DNA of 64,000 nt, from contig JALSJP010000016.1 in the NCBI GenBank assembly GCA_026989265.1, positions 62,001 through 126,000 of the forward strand, written 5' to 3'. The notes under the pieces are model-generated. The model was not told the origin of the DNA. It worked only from the letters and a program-made list of their open reading frames with translations, and did no database searches. This DNA is from Micavibrio sp. Its GTDB lineage: Bacteria > Pseudomonadota > Alphaproteobacteria > Micavibrionales > Micavibrionaceae. The first letter of the stretch is position 1, and every line of letters starts with the position of its first letter. The position numbers were made by a program, and so were the translations under genes. Below, one piece after another: positions 18,260 through 51,175 of this stretch.

Positions 18260-19690
18260 TTAAAGCTCATTTTTAGCAAATTTTAAATCTTGCGCGAGGA
18301 CAACATATTTTTGTTTAACAGCAAGGATGCGCGCTTGAAAATCTTTTAGCTTCCTTCCAGCGAGCTTTTCCCCTGAAGATGATCTAACGGATTTAGGGTT
18401 AATTTGCTTACCATTTTTTATAACTTCAAAATGCAAATGAGGTCCAGTAGAGCGACCAGTAGTGCCAACATACCCAATAACATCACCTTGCGAAACGCGC
18501 TTACCTGATTTCATGCCTTTAGCAAATTTACGCATATGCGCATATGCGGTTTTAAGTCCATTATTATGGCGGATGCGAATATAGTTTCCATAACCACCGT
18601 TGCGCCCCGCTTTTTCAATAACTCCATTACCAGCAGCATAAATTGGCGTTCCCCGCGGCGCTGCAAAATCAACACCTTTATGCATCTTGTTATAGCCCAA
18701 AACAGGGTGGCGGCGCATACCATATCCTGAAGACATGCGCGCACCATCAACTGGGGTTCGCATCAAAGCACGCTTTAAACTTGCACCATTTTCACGGTAA
18801 TAGTCAACGTAACCATCTTTACCACCATAACGGTAAACTGGGATTTCACGACCACCAACCTTTAAGCTAGCGTAAAGAATATTACCATATCGTACAAACA
18901 TACCGTCTCTTGTTTCATATGTTTCATACAATATCTCAACTTTATCACCGCGCCTTATATCACGCTGAAAATCAACATCATATGAATAAATTTTAATCAT
19001 CTCAGCGACTATAGAAGCAGGGACACCCGACTTAGCAGCCGAACCATATAATGAAGTTTCTATAGAAACCATAGCTGCTTTTGTTTGTAGAGTAACTTCT
19101 GCTTCATTAACCTTAGCAGAAAAACGCTCAAGCTCATCGCGAGTAATAATAAGCTCTTTAATAGGTGTTATTTTCATATCAAGACCAGTAAGCTTTAGGT
19201 CATTTTCACTAGGATCGACATATATAGAAATTACCTGCCCTGGTCTAATAGAGCGAGGATCATAATGCTCGCTCATAACTTTAACAACTCTATATGCTTC
19301 TGCGCCGCTAACCCCAGCATCTTGCAGCGCGCCCGCGATAGTGCCGCCCGAACTTATTTTAATAATTTCCTCGTAAGGTGATAAATCCTTAACCACAATT
19401 TCTGCAGCCTCTTCGATAATATTCAAAGGCAGGGGCTGTAACATATCAATGTCATATTTATCATTGGTTGTTATTGCCACCGTAGATATAATATCATTAT
19501 TAATTGGCGCAAAAGCAACTGAAGAGCTTGTAGCTCCCATAAGGCTCGCAAACATCATAGACATAACCACGGCGCTGCTAGCTAAATAACGCAAGCGCGG
19601 CCAATTGCCTTTTGTCAAGACATAGCGACGGCGCAGCCTAAATACGCGGTAAAGTGATATCTTATTGTTCAATATATTAATTAAGCGCAA
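18260..19690 (-). CDS. M23-family peptidoglycan endopeptidase with membrane anchor
   Basis: A 476-residue LytM/M23 protein. A basic N-terminus precedes a hydrophobic segment near residues 34-60 (membrane anchor or signal). Residues ~125-165 look like a LysM/OapA-type binding region (SGGTIAGALQDAGVS ... IRPGQVISIYV). The C-terminal M23 domain has HKGVDFAAPRGTPIYAAGNG, the middle His in AYAHM and HLHFEV, so the zinc site is complete and the enzyme is probably active. It would cut cross-links in the periplasm during growth or division. It lies upstream of rne on the same strand. Confidence 0.92.
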   Translation of the reverse strand: MRLINILNNKISLYRVFRLRRRYVLTKGNWPRLRYLASSAVVMSMMFASLMGATSSSVAFAPINNDIISTVAITTNDKYDIDMLQPLPLNIIEEAAEIVVKDLSPYEEIIKISSGGTIAGALQDAGVSGAEAYRVVKVMSEHYDPRSIRPGQVISIYVDPSENDLKLTGLDMKITPIKELIITRDELERFSAKVNEAEVTLQTKAAMVSIETSLYGSAAKSGVPASIVAEMIKIYSYDVDFQRDIRRGDKVEILYETYETRDGMFVRYGNILYASLKVGGREIPVYRYGGKDGYVDYYRENGASLKRALMRTPVDGARMSSGYGMRRHPVLGYNKMHKGVDFAAPRGTPIYAAGNGVIEKAGRNGGYGNYIRIRHNNGLKTAYAHMRKFAKGMKSGKRVSQGDVIGYVGTTGRSTGPHLHFEVIKNGKQINPKSVRSSSGEKLAGRKLKDFQARILAVKQKYVVLAQDLKFAKNEL

Positions 19691-47814: not shown

Positions 47815-47833
47815 TAAAATGAAGATAAAGAAT

Positions 47834-49177
47834 ATGAGTAATAAAAATCCGTTAGCTGTTGTGATTCTTGCCGCTGGTAAAGGTACGCGCATGAAATCTG
47901 ATAAGCCAAAAGTTATGCATGAGCTTTTAGGACTTCCCATGATTAATTGGCTTCTTAATTCGGTGGAGCAATTAAATCCAGACCGTATCTTAACTGTTAT
48001 TGGGCAAGGCATGGATGATTTGGCTAGTGCAGTATCCCCGCATGAAACAGTTACCCAAGTTAAACAAGATGGAACGGGCAGTGCATTAAAGATTGCTATG
48101 GGAGCGTTGCAAGATTTTAACGGTGATATACTTGTTTTGCTGGGTGATACCCCGCTTATATCTGTGGAGACCATGCAAGGGCTTATTGATGCTCGCCGTC
48201 AAAGACCTGATACGGGTATATCGGTTCTTGGCATGTGCATTGATAATCCATATGGCTATGGCAGACTTTTAATAGATAGCGACGGCACATTGCGAGATAT
48301 CCGCGAGGAAAAAGATGCAAGTGATGAAGAAAAGCAGGTTAATATCGTAAATACTGGCGCGTTTTGCCTTGACGCTGCCCAAGTTAATGATTGGCTTTCG
48401 GATCTGGTTAATATTAATGCTAGTGGTGAGTATTATATTACTGATCTTCCAGAAATTGCCGCGCGTAAAGGCGTTAAAACTAGCGTAGCTATTAGTGCAA
48501 ATCCCAAAGAAGTACAGGGCTGTAATACTCGCATAAACCTAAGTGAGTTAGAACAATATGCTCAAGAAATAATGCGCGAGGAATTTATAAATGCTGGCGT
48601 TGTGATACAAGACCCATCAAGCGTTTATTTCTACCATGATACAAAAATAAAAACAGGAACTTTGATAGAGCCTAATGTTTATTTTGGCGGCGGAGTCGAG
48701 GTGGGCGCGAATGTTCATATCAAGGCATTCTGCCATTTTGAAGGTGCTAAAATCGGCGCAAACACGGTCATAGGACCTTTTGCCCGCCTTCGCAATGGCT
48801 CTGATATCGGGCAGGAAGTACGCATTGGTAATTTCGTGGAAATAAAGAAATCCGAAATCGGTAGGGGAAGTAAAATATCTCACCTAGCCTATGTCGGTGA
48901 TTGCATAATGGGCAAGGATGTGAATTTCTCATGCGGGGCAATTACGGTTAATTATGATGGCTTTGATAAGCATCAAACAATTATAAAAGACGGCGCGATG
49001 GTGGGAAGTAACGTAAATCTAGTCGCTCCCGTTGAAATAGGCGAGGGAGCATTTATCGCGGCTGGCTCTACCATTACAACTGATATCCCATCTGATGCTC
49101 TATCAGTTGAGCGCAGCAAAGCCAAAACAATAAAAGGCTGGGCGGCTAATTTCCGTAAAAGCAAGCAGAGCAGCTGA
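47834..49177 (+). CDS. glmU: Bifunctional GlmU: glucosamine-1-phosphate acetyltransferase / UDP-GlcNAc pyrophosphorylase
   Basis: Makes UDP-GlcNAc for peptidoglycan and LPS. The N-terminal uridyltransferase has VILAAGKGTRMKSDKPKVM, QDGTGSALK and LGDTPLIS. The C-terminal acetyltransferase is a beta-helix of hexapeptides (GAKIGANTVIGPFARLRNGS) with HLAYVGDCIMGKDVNFSCGA. I use the ATG at 47834 (447 residues). The ATG 15 bases earlier has no ribosome-binding site, but remains possible. It is followed by glmS. Confidence 0.95.
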   Translation: MSNKNPLAVVILAAGKGTRMKSDKPKVMHELLGLPMINWLLNSVEQLNPDRILTVIGQGMDDLASAVSPHETVTQVKQDGTGSALKIAMGALQDFNGDILVLLGDTPLISVETMQGLIDARRQRPDTGISVLGMCIDNPYGYGRLLIDSDGTLRDIREEKDASDEEKQVNIVNTGAFCLDAAQVNDWLSDLVNINASGEYYITDLPEIAARKGVKTSVAISANPKEVQGCNTRINLSELEQYAQEIMREEFINAGVVIQDPSSVYFYHDTKIKTGTLIEPNVYFGGGVEVGANVHIKAFCHFEGAKIGANTVIGPFARLRNGSDIGQEVRIGNFVEIKKSEIGRGSKISHLAYVGDCIMGKDVNFSCGAITVNYDGFDKHQTIIKDGAMVGSNVNLVAPVEIGEGAFIAAGSTITTDIPSDALSVERSKAKTIKGWAANFRKSKQSS

Positions 49178-49238
49178 AACAATCCGTAAAACTTCGTTAC
49201 TTGCATTATAAATCCATATAATTATGATGCGGAATTGT

Positions 49239-49344
49239 TTAACCGCTCATATCTTTATCTGGACAAGGTATGAGTGACGACAAGTATATTTCATACCTTA
49301 GGATACGAAATAACGATGCTCCAGATAAAGATATGAGCGGTTAA
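49239..49344 (+). promoter_or_regulatory. Perfect 25-bp inverted repeat with inner hairpins directly before glmS
   Basis: Arms 49239-49263 (TTAACCGCTC...TATCTGGA) and 49320-49344 (TCCAGATA...GAGCGGTTAA) are exact complements. The right arm ends one base before the glmS ATG and contains its GAGCGG ribosome-binding site. Inside, AAGGTATGA (49265-49273) pairs with TCATACCTT (49291-49299); TATTTCATACC can alternatively pair with downstream GGATACGAAATA. No T-run follows. It could be a cis-acting RNA or a ~106-bp MITE, whose arms would be flanked by TA. Confidence 0.7.
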
Positions 49345-49345
49345 T

Positions 49346-51175
49346 ATGTGTGGAATTTTTGGAATTATAGGCGAGCAAGACGTAGCCCCTCTTTTATTAG
49401 AAGGGCTAAAACGCCTTGAATATCGTGGCTATGACTCTGCTGGCATTGCAAGCCTTTCAAATGGCGTTATTGATCGCAGACGCGCTCAAGGTAAGCTGGT
49501 TAATCTAGCGCAAAAGCTAAAAGATAATCCATTATCAGGCACTATAGGAATTGGTCATACGCGCTGGGCTACTCATGGACTGCCGAATGAGCGCAATGCC
49601 CACCCGCATGCAACTGATAAAGTCGCGGTTGTGCATAATGGAATTATCGAGAATTACGCTGCTCTTAAAGCTGAGCTGGAAAACCATGGCGCAAAGTTCG
49701 AAACGCAAACAGATACCGAAGTTATAATCCATCTTGTGACATATTATATGGATCAAGGCGATGAGCCTATAATTGCCGCTAATAAAGCGATGGATCGCCT
49801 TACTGGCGCGTATGCACTTGTGATGCTATTTACTGGTCATGAAGATTTTATAGTAGGATGCAGGCAAGGAACGCCGCTTGCCGTTGGTTATGGCGATGGT
49901 GAGATGTTCGTAGCATCTGATTCCTATGCCCTTGCTCCGCTAACCAAGAAAATATGTTTCTTAGAAGATGGTGATCGCGTTACTGTAACTCGCAATAATG
50001 TAAGTATTTATGATAAGGATCAAAACCCGCTTACCCGCGATATCCGCATAACAGAGCAATCGGGCGCGATAAGCGGTAAGGGGCAGTACAAGCATTTTAT
50101 GCTTAAGGAAATATATGAGCAGCCCGCCGTTATTGGCGAGACGCTTAACTCATTTGTTAATGCTGGCACTGGCAAGATATCCATCCCTGATGATGTGTTA
50201 AATGCCATTACAAACGCGCCGCGCCTTACATTAATTGCCTGCGGGACGGCGTATTATGCCTGCATGGTGGCGAAATACTGGTTCGAGCAAATAGCGCGAA
50301 TCCCGTGTGAAATTGACGTTGCAAGCGAGTTTAGATATCGCGAAGCCCCAATGCCAGCGGGCGGAGTTGCCCTGTTTATATCTCAATCAGGAGAAACTCT
50401 CGATACATTAGAGGCTTTAAGATATTGCAAATCACAAGATCAGAAAATACTTTCTATTGTAAATGCAATTGAAAGCACGATAGAGCGCGAATCCGATTTT
50501 GCGCTGCATACATTGGCAGGGCCAGAAATTGGAGTTGCTTCAACCAAAGCCTTTACAACCCAGCTAACTACGCTTGCATGTATTGTGCTTGCTAGTGCTA
50601 GGGCGAAAGGCTCAATTACAAAAGCTAAAGAGCATGAAATGGCAGAAGCTTTGCGCCAAGTTCCAAGCATTGCCGCTGATATTTTATCTCATGATGAGGC
50701 TATACTTGCGATTGCCAAAGATATAGCCGATGCGCGAGATGTTTTATATTTAGGGCGCGGGAGCTTATATCCGATAGCTTTAGAGGGCGCATTAAAGCTC
50801 AAGGAAATTTCATATATACACGCGGAAGGTTATGCCTCGGGCGAGATGAAACACGGGCCTATCGCTCTAATTGATGATAGCGTGCCTATTGTTGTTGTCG
50901 CACCAGAAAATGACCCGATGTTTGAAAAGAATGTTTCAAATATTCAAGAAACAGTGGCACGCGGGGGCAAGGTATTTCTTATATCTGATGAAAATGGCGT
51001 AAAAGCCCTTAATGAGCAATCAACGTGGAGCGTTGCCATGGGCGCGGTTCACCCATTTGTTGCGCCGATTTTATACTCAATCCCTGTGCAGCTTCTATCT
51101 TATCATGTGGCGGTTATAAAAGGCACAGATGTTGATCAGCCCCGAAATCTCGCCAAATCTGTAACGGTGGAGTGA
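49346..51175 (+). CDS. glmS: Glutamine-fructose-6-phosphate aminotransferase (isomerizing)
   Basis: First enzyme of hexosamine synthesis; product feeds GlmU. The 609 residues begin MCGIFGI with the N-terminal nucleophile Cys. LEYRGYDSAGIA, HTRWATHGLPNERNAHPH and the two SIS sugar domains (ISQSGETLDTLEALRY; GVASTKAFTTQL; HAEGYASGEMKHGPIALI) follow, ending in QPRNLAKSVTVE. Length is normal. Its ribosome-binding site is within a 25-bp inverted-repeat stem, so translation may be controlled by RNA folding. Confidence 0.97.
   Translation: MCGIFGIIGEQDVAPLLLEGLKRLEYRGYDSAGIASLSNGVIDRRRAQGKLVNLAQKLKDNPLSGTIGIGHTRWATHGLPNERNAHPHATDKVAVVHNGIIENYAALKAELENHGAKFETQTDTEVIIHLVTYYMDQGDEPIIAANKAMDRLTGAYALVMLFTGHEDFIVGCRQGTPLAVGYGDGEMFVASDSYALAPLTKKICFLEDGDRVTVTRNNVSIYDKDQNPLTRDIRITEQSGAISGKGQYKHFMLKEIYEQPAVIGETLNSFVNAGTGKISIPDDVLNAITNAPRLTLIACGTAYYACMVAKYWFEQIARIPCEIDVASEFRYREAPMPAGGVALFISQSGETLDTLEALRYCKSQDQKILSIVNAIESTIERESDFALHTLAGPEIGVASTKAFTTQLTTLACIVLASARAKGSITKAKEHEMAEALRQVPSIAADILSHDEAILAIAKDIADARDVLYLGRGSLYPIALEGALKLKEISYIHAEGYASGEMKHGPIALIDDSVPIVVVAPENDPMFEKNVSNIQETVARGGKVFLISDENGVKALNEQSTWSVAMGAVHPFVAPILYSIPVQLLSYHVAVIKGTDVDQPRNLAKSVTVE

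Follow-up and report, generated by a model that had tools for sequence, protein, structure and literature searches.

RNA control of glmS is known from the glmS ribozyme and from GlmY/GlmZ, and in ROSE-type RNA thermometers the SD sequence is placed in a hairpin opposite mismatches. The BOX and RUP elements of Streptococcus pneumoniae are small, dispersed and tightly folded repeats, which according to the accessible text of their description are transcribed as 5′ or 3′ additions to operons and are thought to affect expression (PMC3049150). REPs, in the available portion of the paper which surveys them, are 20–40 bp long with 8–9-bp CGTC stems and a terminal tag, many of them lie near gene 3′ ends, and the CGTC-1 repeats are present in Micavibrio aeruginosavorus (PMC3733652). 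In the excerpted text on the M. aeruginosavorus genome, repeats of at least 50 bp and at least 97% identity make up 0.10% of the sequence (PMC3189940), and copies as divergent as those described below would therefore be missed at that identity threshold.

Here we describe a hairpin upstream of glmS in a 64-kb stretch of Micavibrio sp. DNA (the window), which is one copy of a scattered, structured repeat family of approximately 105 nt. RNA-type control at glmS, which is predicted here, would be shared with the glmS ribozyme and GlmY/GlmZ; unlike these, the element is not specific to glmS, and no Rfam match to such RNAs is present in the window. In its presumed action the element is nearest to SD-hiding leaders such as ROSE, in that a hairpin places the SD across from mismatched bases (G·G and C·U, in the subfamily whose SD side faces GC); its length and core differ, and it has no Rfam match. 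In kind it is nearest to BOX/RUP, REPs and MITEs, and by the tests made its fold or sequence matches none of them. With BOX/RUP it shares small size, dispersal, tight folding and, presumably, transcription together with genes and an effect on expression; the sequence and fold are different, and a 3′ end fixed at 0–6 nt from the start codon with an SD in the arm is not described for them in the accessible text (PMC3049150). The GTAG/CGTC REPs, as far as the available portion of their description goes, are likewise dispersed palindromes that lie mainly between genes, are frequent in Alphaproteobacteria and occur in Micavibrio; our element differs in its length of ~105 nt, its two long helices and its conserved non-canonical core, and its consensus has no terminal CGTC or GTAG. 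Like the MITEs, which the accessible part of PMC10969869 presents as short, non-autonomous and multi-copy with inverted ends, the element is short, present in many copies and bounded by inverted ends; it differs from them in keeping its pairing by compensatory changes and in sitting at start codons.

The perfect inverted repeat described in the earlier note was found at the glmS site (Table 1): the two arms are complementary at 25 of 25 positions around a centre of 56 nt, and one base (49345) separates the hairpin from the glmS ATG at 49346. It is the only inverted repeat in the window with arms of at least 14 and a loop of at most 200, and the longest arm obtained in 20 first-order Markov shuffles of the window was 16. 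The RNA fold of positions 49178–49400 has an energy of −71.2 kcal/mol (z = −6.9). The inner 9-bp helix is also present, and GAGCGG lies inside the right arm, where the best anti-SD window of the leader reaches only −2.9 kcal/mol; anti-SD energies were calculated with an assumed 16S tail. A second, mismatched pairing alternative had also been pointed out for the inner hairpin (GGATACGAAATA).

Table 1. Coordinates of the repeat copy, its parts and the adjoining genes (positions in the window)
Feature	Position	Strand	Basis
Whole element, one family copy	49237..49344	+	Covariance model R2 (this copy is one of its 68 sequences), 91.0 bits, sole match in the window
5′ arm (helices P1 and P2), perfect in the glmS copy	49239..49263	+	
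3′ arm, fully paired in the glmS copy (loop closed)	49320..49344	+	
Conserved core, 5′ strand (CAAGGTATGAGTGACGA)	49264..49280	+	Alignments A2–A4
Apical hairpin region (P4), changed in the glmS copy	49281..49299	+	
Conserved core, 3′ strand (AGGATACGAAATAACGATGC)	49300..49319	+	Alignments A2–A4
Private 9-bp inner helix, left half (partner 49291–49299)	49265..49273	+	
Private 9-bp inner helix, right half	49291..49299	+	
ATATGA; the closest sister copy, L002, carries SD-like AGAGGA here	49331..49336	+	Alignment A2
GAGCGG, weak RBS-like stretch within the stem	49335..49340	+	
glmS	49346..51175	+	TIGR01135, 791 bits
glmU, gene upstream of the element	47819..49177	+	NF010933 and TIGR01173, above cut-off

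Copies of the element were tracked by BLAST and by covariance models (G and L numbers denote genomes and loci). The search of the own genome for further copies, which the earlier note had called for, gave six others besides the glmS copy by plain BLAST, and BLAST in the genus gave copies in 6 of 12 genomes. The 28 full copies found by BLAST form alignments A2 and A3 and were the seeds of model R1; model R2 was built from 68 copies (alignment A4). The own genome (G000, 1.74 Mb) has 24 R2 matches at E ≤ 0.01, one of which is the reverse strand of another; the 23 distinct ones, the weakest at 38 bits, correspond to about 23 copies. The consensus of the family is TATAGTC...GACTATA. Matches to R1 were obtained in 11 of the 12 genus genomes (E ≤ 0.01); within the order, which consists of Micavibrio-like Alphaproteobacteria, R1 matched 60 of the 142 genomes, from 23 of 54 genera (E ≤ 0.001). 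With R2 (E ≤ 1e-4), matches were obtained in 20 of the 385 genomes sampled from the class and in 34 of the 398 sampled from the phylum; the two samples overlap, and the best 9–10 candidates per genome were scored. Among the weaker matches of 40–50 bits, 15 loci were inspected and most of them have long arms and a recognisable core. A degenerate core pattern gave 38 stretches in named genomes, including Micavibrio sp. and MAGs named 'Alphaproteobacteria bacterium'; surprisingly, the Gammaproteobacteria were also represented, by Panacagrimonas (four stretches) and Nevskia (one). The same pattern gave 0 matches in viral contigs, and nothing was found in plasmids by BLAST with two copies from the gammaproteobacterial side (L254, L145). 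The genus Micavibrio is placed under Bdellovibrionales in the NCBI taxonomy and is cited as deeply branching within the Alphaproteobacteria in the available text of PMC3733652.

The whole window searched against all 4227 Rfam families at the gathering score gave one tRNA match only. At E ≤ 5, seven loci gave no match at the element and two weak ones elsewhere (L004, L054); that in L004 (2755–2866, minus strand) is to IMES-2 at 23.4 bits (gathering score 54.7) and lies away from the element. No description of the element was found in the literature searched, which included few subscription journals, and this is weak evidence of novelty. Some copies are arranged in pairs. Contig C5 of the own genome carries a pair of almost identical copies in head-to-tail order (19086–19292; L182/L311), adjoining the end of an opposite-strand gene, and at apparently the same place G002 and G004 have a copy with compensatory changes. 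Two of the four Panacagrimonas stretches and the Nevskia stretch hold inverted copy pairs with GC-rich arms, 6 to ~100 nt apart (L127 2822–3035, L145 3854–4167, L125 1–176). An apparent large extra insert within the core was seen in L067 (G002) and L160.

The fold of the family is conserved by compensatory changes. In the 68 copies of A4, 93.3% of 2243 cells are paired and two-sided changes occur at 31 of 33 pairs; the covariation score is 0.598 against 0.218 for the shuffled and at most 0.137 for the slid control, with a scored structure derived from A4 itself, which favours that structure. RNAalifold on 28 copies gave 28 pairs, 17 of them with two-sided changes. The arms (P1, P2) vary widely among subfamilies. 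The conserved core is made of two strands near AAGGCAUGAGCGACGA and UGAGGAGCGAAUAACG, which align so that short Watson-Crick steps and tandem mismatches follow each other in turn. The outer core mismatch is GA/GA in 20 of the 68 copies, GA/G-gap in 13 and AA/GA or AA/GC in 21, and the G·A pairs are presumably sheared. The inner strands of the core are exactly swapped (AGGAGCGA/GAGCGACGA) in two of the 68 copies.

The arm mismatches were counted on DNA alignments with equal penalties, because folding programs prefer G·U over A·C. The ratio of G·T to A·C is 43:5 in the 28 BLAST-found copies, which were collected without the RNA model; in the larger sets, which came via that model, it is 135:20 (all 75 copies at start codons) and 102:17 (the remaining 65). 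From this excess it follows that one strand folds, as RNA or as single-stranded DNA. Perfect arms were also tried as a hallmark of the copies away from start codons and were rejected, the number of unpaired arm positions being no different (p = 0.64). Template-switch correction of quasi-palindromes could be a source of part of the arm complementarity in the absence of selection.

The position of the element with respect to start codons was analysed in 140 copies, which are high-scoring ones picked among the matches listed and a part of all matches, by searching for an ORF of at least 80 codons starting within −3 to +20 of the element 3′ end. Such a start was found on the same strand for 75 of the 140 copies and on the opposite strand for 6, and in 63 of the 71 ATG cases it lies 0–6 nt from the element end. 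As controls, 253 of 2800 non-ORF positions in the same loci pass this test, and wholly random positions gave a mean of 20.4 of 140 and a maximum of 29 over 100 draws. The set of 140 was made without L067, L068 and L070 (insert or partial), L093 (contig end) and the loci duplicating a copy already included; the strand of L094 was assumed, and L046 (short contig), L054 and L069 (short gene) were counted as having no start despite an adjoining start codon. Conserved pairing, the folding of one strand and a fixed place, as in a cis-acting 5′ leader, are all found in the family, the fixed place for the 75 copies.

The fraction of start-codon copies is 24/28 among the R1 seeds and 51/112 among the other copies. 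By genome it is uneven, with 10/13 in G000, 8/13 in G002, 13/23 in G003, 6/10 in G004, 7/10 in G006, 10/18 in G007, 3/4 in G010, 7/9 in G021, 2/5 in G116, 3/4 in G117, 2/2 in G065 and 1/1 in G008; it is 0/2 in G001, 0/2 in G005, 0/3 in G011, 0/5 in G115 and 3/16 in further genera. Two of 15 more distant loci pass the test (L246, L250), one of them with ATG. Places of the non-start copies include the ends of genes, the gaps of convergent gene pairs and the vicinity of tRNA-like genes (by eye). Since 65 of the 140 copies fail the start-codon test, a leader role is not the sole role of the family. Copies immediately 5′ of apparent tRNA genes were seen by eye in L081, L091 and L115.

In many start-codon copies the 3′ arm carries an SD-like AGAGGA, AGATGG or AAGGAAG opposite an internal loop. 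The mean anti-SD energy of the 3′ arm is −3.86 kcal/mol vs −1.12 for the antisense arm in these copies, and −2.57 vs −1.24 kcal/mol in the other copies. The predicted accessibility of positions −20 to −4 is 0.21 for 71 element genes vs 0.46 for 83 control ORFs, whose starts are the first ATGs of long ORFs and represent putative genes; the mean SD energies of the two groups are numerically similar (−3.90 and −3.72).

The genes behind the element are unrelated and do not form a single pathway, as the targets of a riboswitch would. In the own genome the BLAST copies precede a PfkB-like kinase (an assignment that does not reach the curated thresholds), gltX, kdsB, mnmG and a TIGR00282 phosphoesterase (NCBIfam), and the sixth lies behind an apparent ahcY end (by eye). 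Further downstream genes there are obgE, alaS and radA, with accA at +22; smc and accC, also downstream of copies, are partial sequences with scores below the whole-protein cut-offs. The names purB, carB, typA, ahcY, rpmG and similar ones were assigned by eye. G010 has two different typA-like starts (L046, L057), each with its own copy, which may represent a strain mixture or a paralogue.

Presence and absence of the element differ among species of one genus. A glmS gene was matched in 57 of 58 genomes and 30 of the loci were searched with R2 (E ≤ 0.1); the element was found upstream of glmS in the own locus only, 1 of 30, where one of the 30 (L035) has just 60 nt of upstream DNA. In G003 one R2 match lies behind, rather than before, glmS. 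At gltX the element is upstream in 4 of 12 genus genomes (G000, G002, G004, G007); the remaining 8 lack it there, among them G010, whose gltX is the most similar (86%). At a purB-like gene it is present in G002 and absent in G004, G000 and G007, the G010 stretch being too short to judge. In G004 this gene has, in place of the element, a 32-nt leader with its own AAAGG; the leader differs, and a target duplication is not visible at this empty site. A carB-like gene considered as a second empty site was not clean, another gene being upstream in G002.

The copies at shared loci were also compared pair by pair. At a locus common to G000, G002 and G004 by its flanks, one of the two wider comparisons shows 7 compensated pairs and 1 broken pair, the other 8 and 0, and the close comparison shows 2 and 1. 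The gltX copies of G000 and G007 have 8 broken and 2 compensated pairs, the kdsB copies of G000 and G010 have 3 broken and 0 compensated, and the obgE copy of G000 against its presumed G021 counterpart has 5 broken and 6 compensated. These broken pairs at gltX, kdsB and obgE mean that not all copies are well kept, or that some insertions are independent.

The glmS copy is an atypical member of the family. Of 119 copies searched for the first 7 bp of its inner helix, 1 has them. Its nearest sister has a mismatched loop opposite the SD, CATATCTTT against GAATAGAGG; relative to this sister AGAGGA has become ATATGA in the glmS copy (alignment A2), and the arms are perfect because the mismatched loop became fully paired. 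With the arms closed and the helix private, the features which were noticed first are thus derived ones. The predicted accessibility of the ribosome-binding region is 0.08%. Since the weak point is closed, the glmS copy is expected to be a strong brake, probably a constitutive one, or else to serve RNA stability, and not to sense a metabolite.

By computation the family thus has many copies, a conserved fold, a one-strand folding bias, a concentration at start codons and turnover between genomes. From these we propose that the glmS hairpin is a copy of a dispersed MITE-like repeat and that the copies at start codons probably act as 5′-leader hairpins which hide the RBS and lower or gate translation. 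The family would spread as a non-autonomous mobile repeat with TA-flanked ends. A copy may land downstream of a gene's native leader and ahead of its start codon, and the 3′ arm of the copy would then supply the ribosome-binding site. The folded leader would hide this site, and the mismatched loop opposite the SD-like bases would be the weak point, which may be opened by the ribosome, by a protein on the conserved G·A core or by heat.

The earlier note had offered two readings of the hairpin, an undescribed cis-RNA sensing amino sugars or cell-wall state and a recruited MITE with TA-flanked ends, and the second was largely right, given the ~23 copies, the TATAGTC/GACTATA ends and the presence and absence within the genus. 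A glmS-specific RNA which senses GlcN6P or UDP-GlcNAc would suit the position before glmS and an inner 9-bp helix that could exchange its partners; however, copies of the element also precede unrelated genes, none lies upstream at the 29 further glmS loci searched (one with 60 nt upstream), the putative switch helix is that of a single copy among 119, and there is no Rfam match. The riboswitch reading was dropped on gene context and glmS relatives, and we regard it as extremely improbable. Coupling through a leader peptide, in which a short ORF within the element would stop where the gene begins and the gene would be translated by re-initiation, would fit the core-ATG ORFs of the glmS copy (window 49271–49344) and the PfkB-like copy (L002), which end 2–3 nt past the element at the gene start; among the 48 start-codon copies that have a core ATG, however, just 4 have a frame extending as far as the gene start or beyond, a count on which this reading was rejected, and it is scarcely credible to us.

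The element may also be a plain selfish repeat of MITE or REP type, whose hairpin matters only for transposition as a single-stranded DNA substrate and whose start-codon copies are simply tolerated ones. The copy number in the own genome, AT/AT beside AGTC...GACT in 33 of the 69 copies retaining those letters, the copies at gene ends and by tRNA-like genes (by eye), the turnover among species and the head-to-tail and inverted pairs all agree with it, and the one-strand G·T bias suits single-stranded DNA as well as RNA. Random tolerance, however, does not predict ATGs so close to the element end on one strand, nor an advantage of the 3′ arm over the antisense arm in anti-SD pairing; with its compensatory pairing, one folding strand and concentration at start codons the element is more than a decaying MITE, and selfishness by itself seems an unlikely account. 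A shared regulon, in which the leader copies are jointly controlled by one RNA-binding protein or RNA that reads the G·A core, would explain why the core is constant while the arms vary, and the exact strand swap of AGGAGCGA/GAGCGACGA points the same way. The non-leader copies also have the core, however, so that it may serve mobility or folding, and the gene set changes between species; such a regulon is quite improbable.

Dispersed repeats are usually regarded as intergenic clutter. The present family has an unusually well-supported fold and is wide in one order, with relatives elsewhere in the Alpha- and Gammaproteobacteria. Its copies lie, in several species, at the very place from which the translation of core genes could be set. 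It is doubtful, though conceivable, that a mobile RNA leader captures the RBS of essential genes so that its loss is lethal, with one trans-acting factor reading the G·A core and a rewired housekeeping set specific to each species. If the leader role of the start-codon copies is true, the family would clearly exemplify how repeats can add a post-transcriptional layer of control to housekeeping genes, and this layer would turn over between species within one genus.
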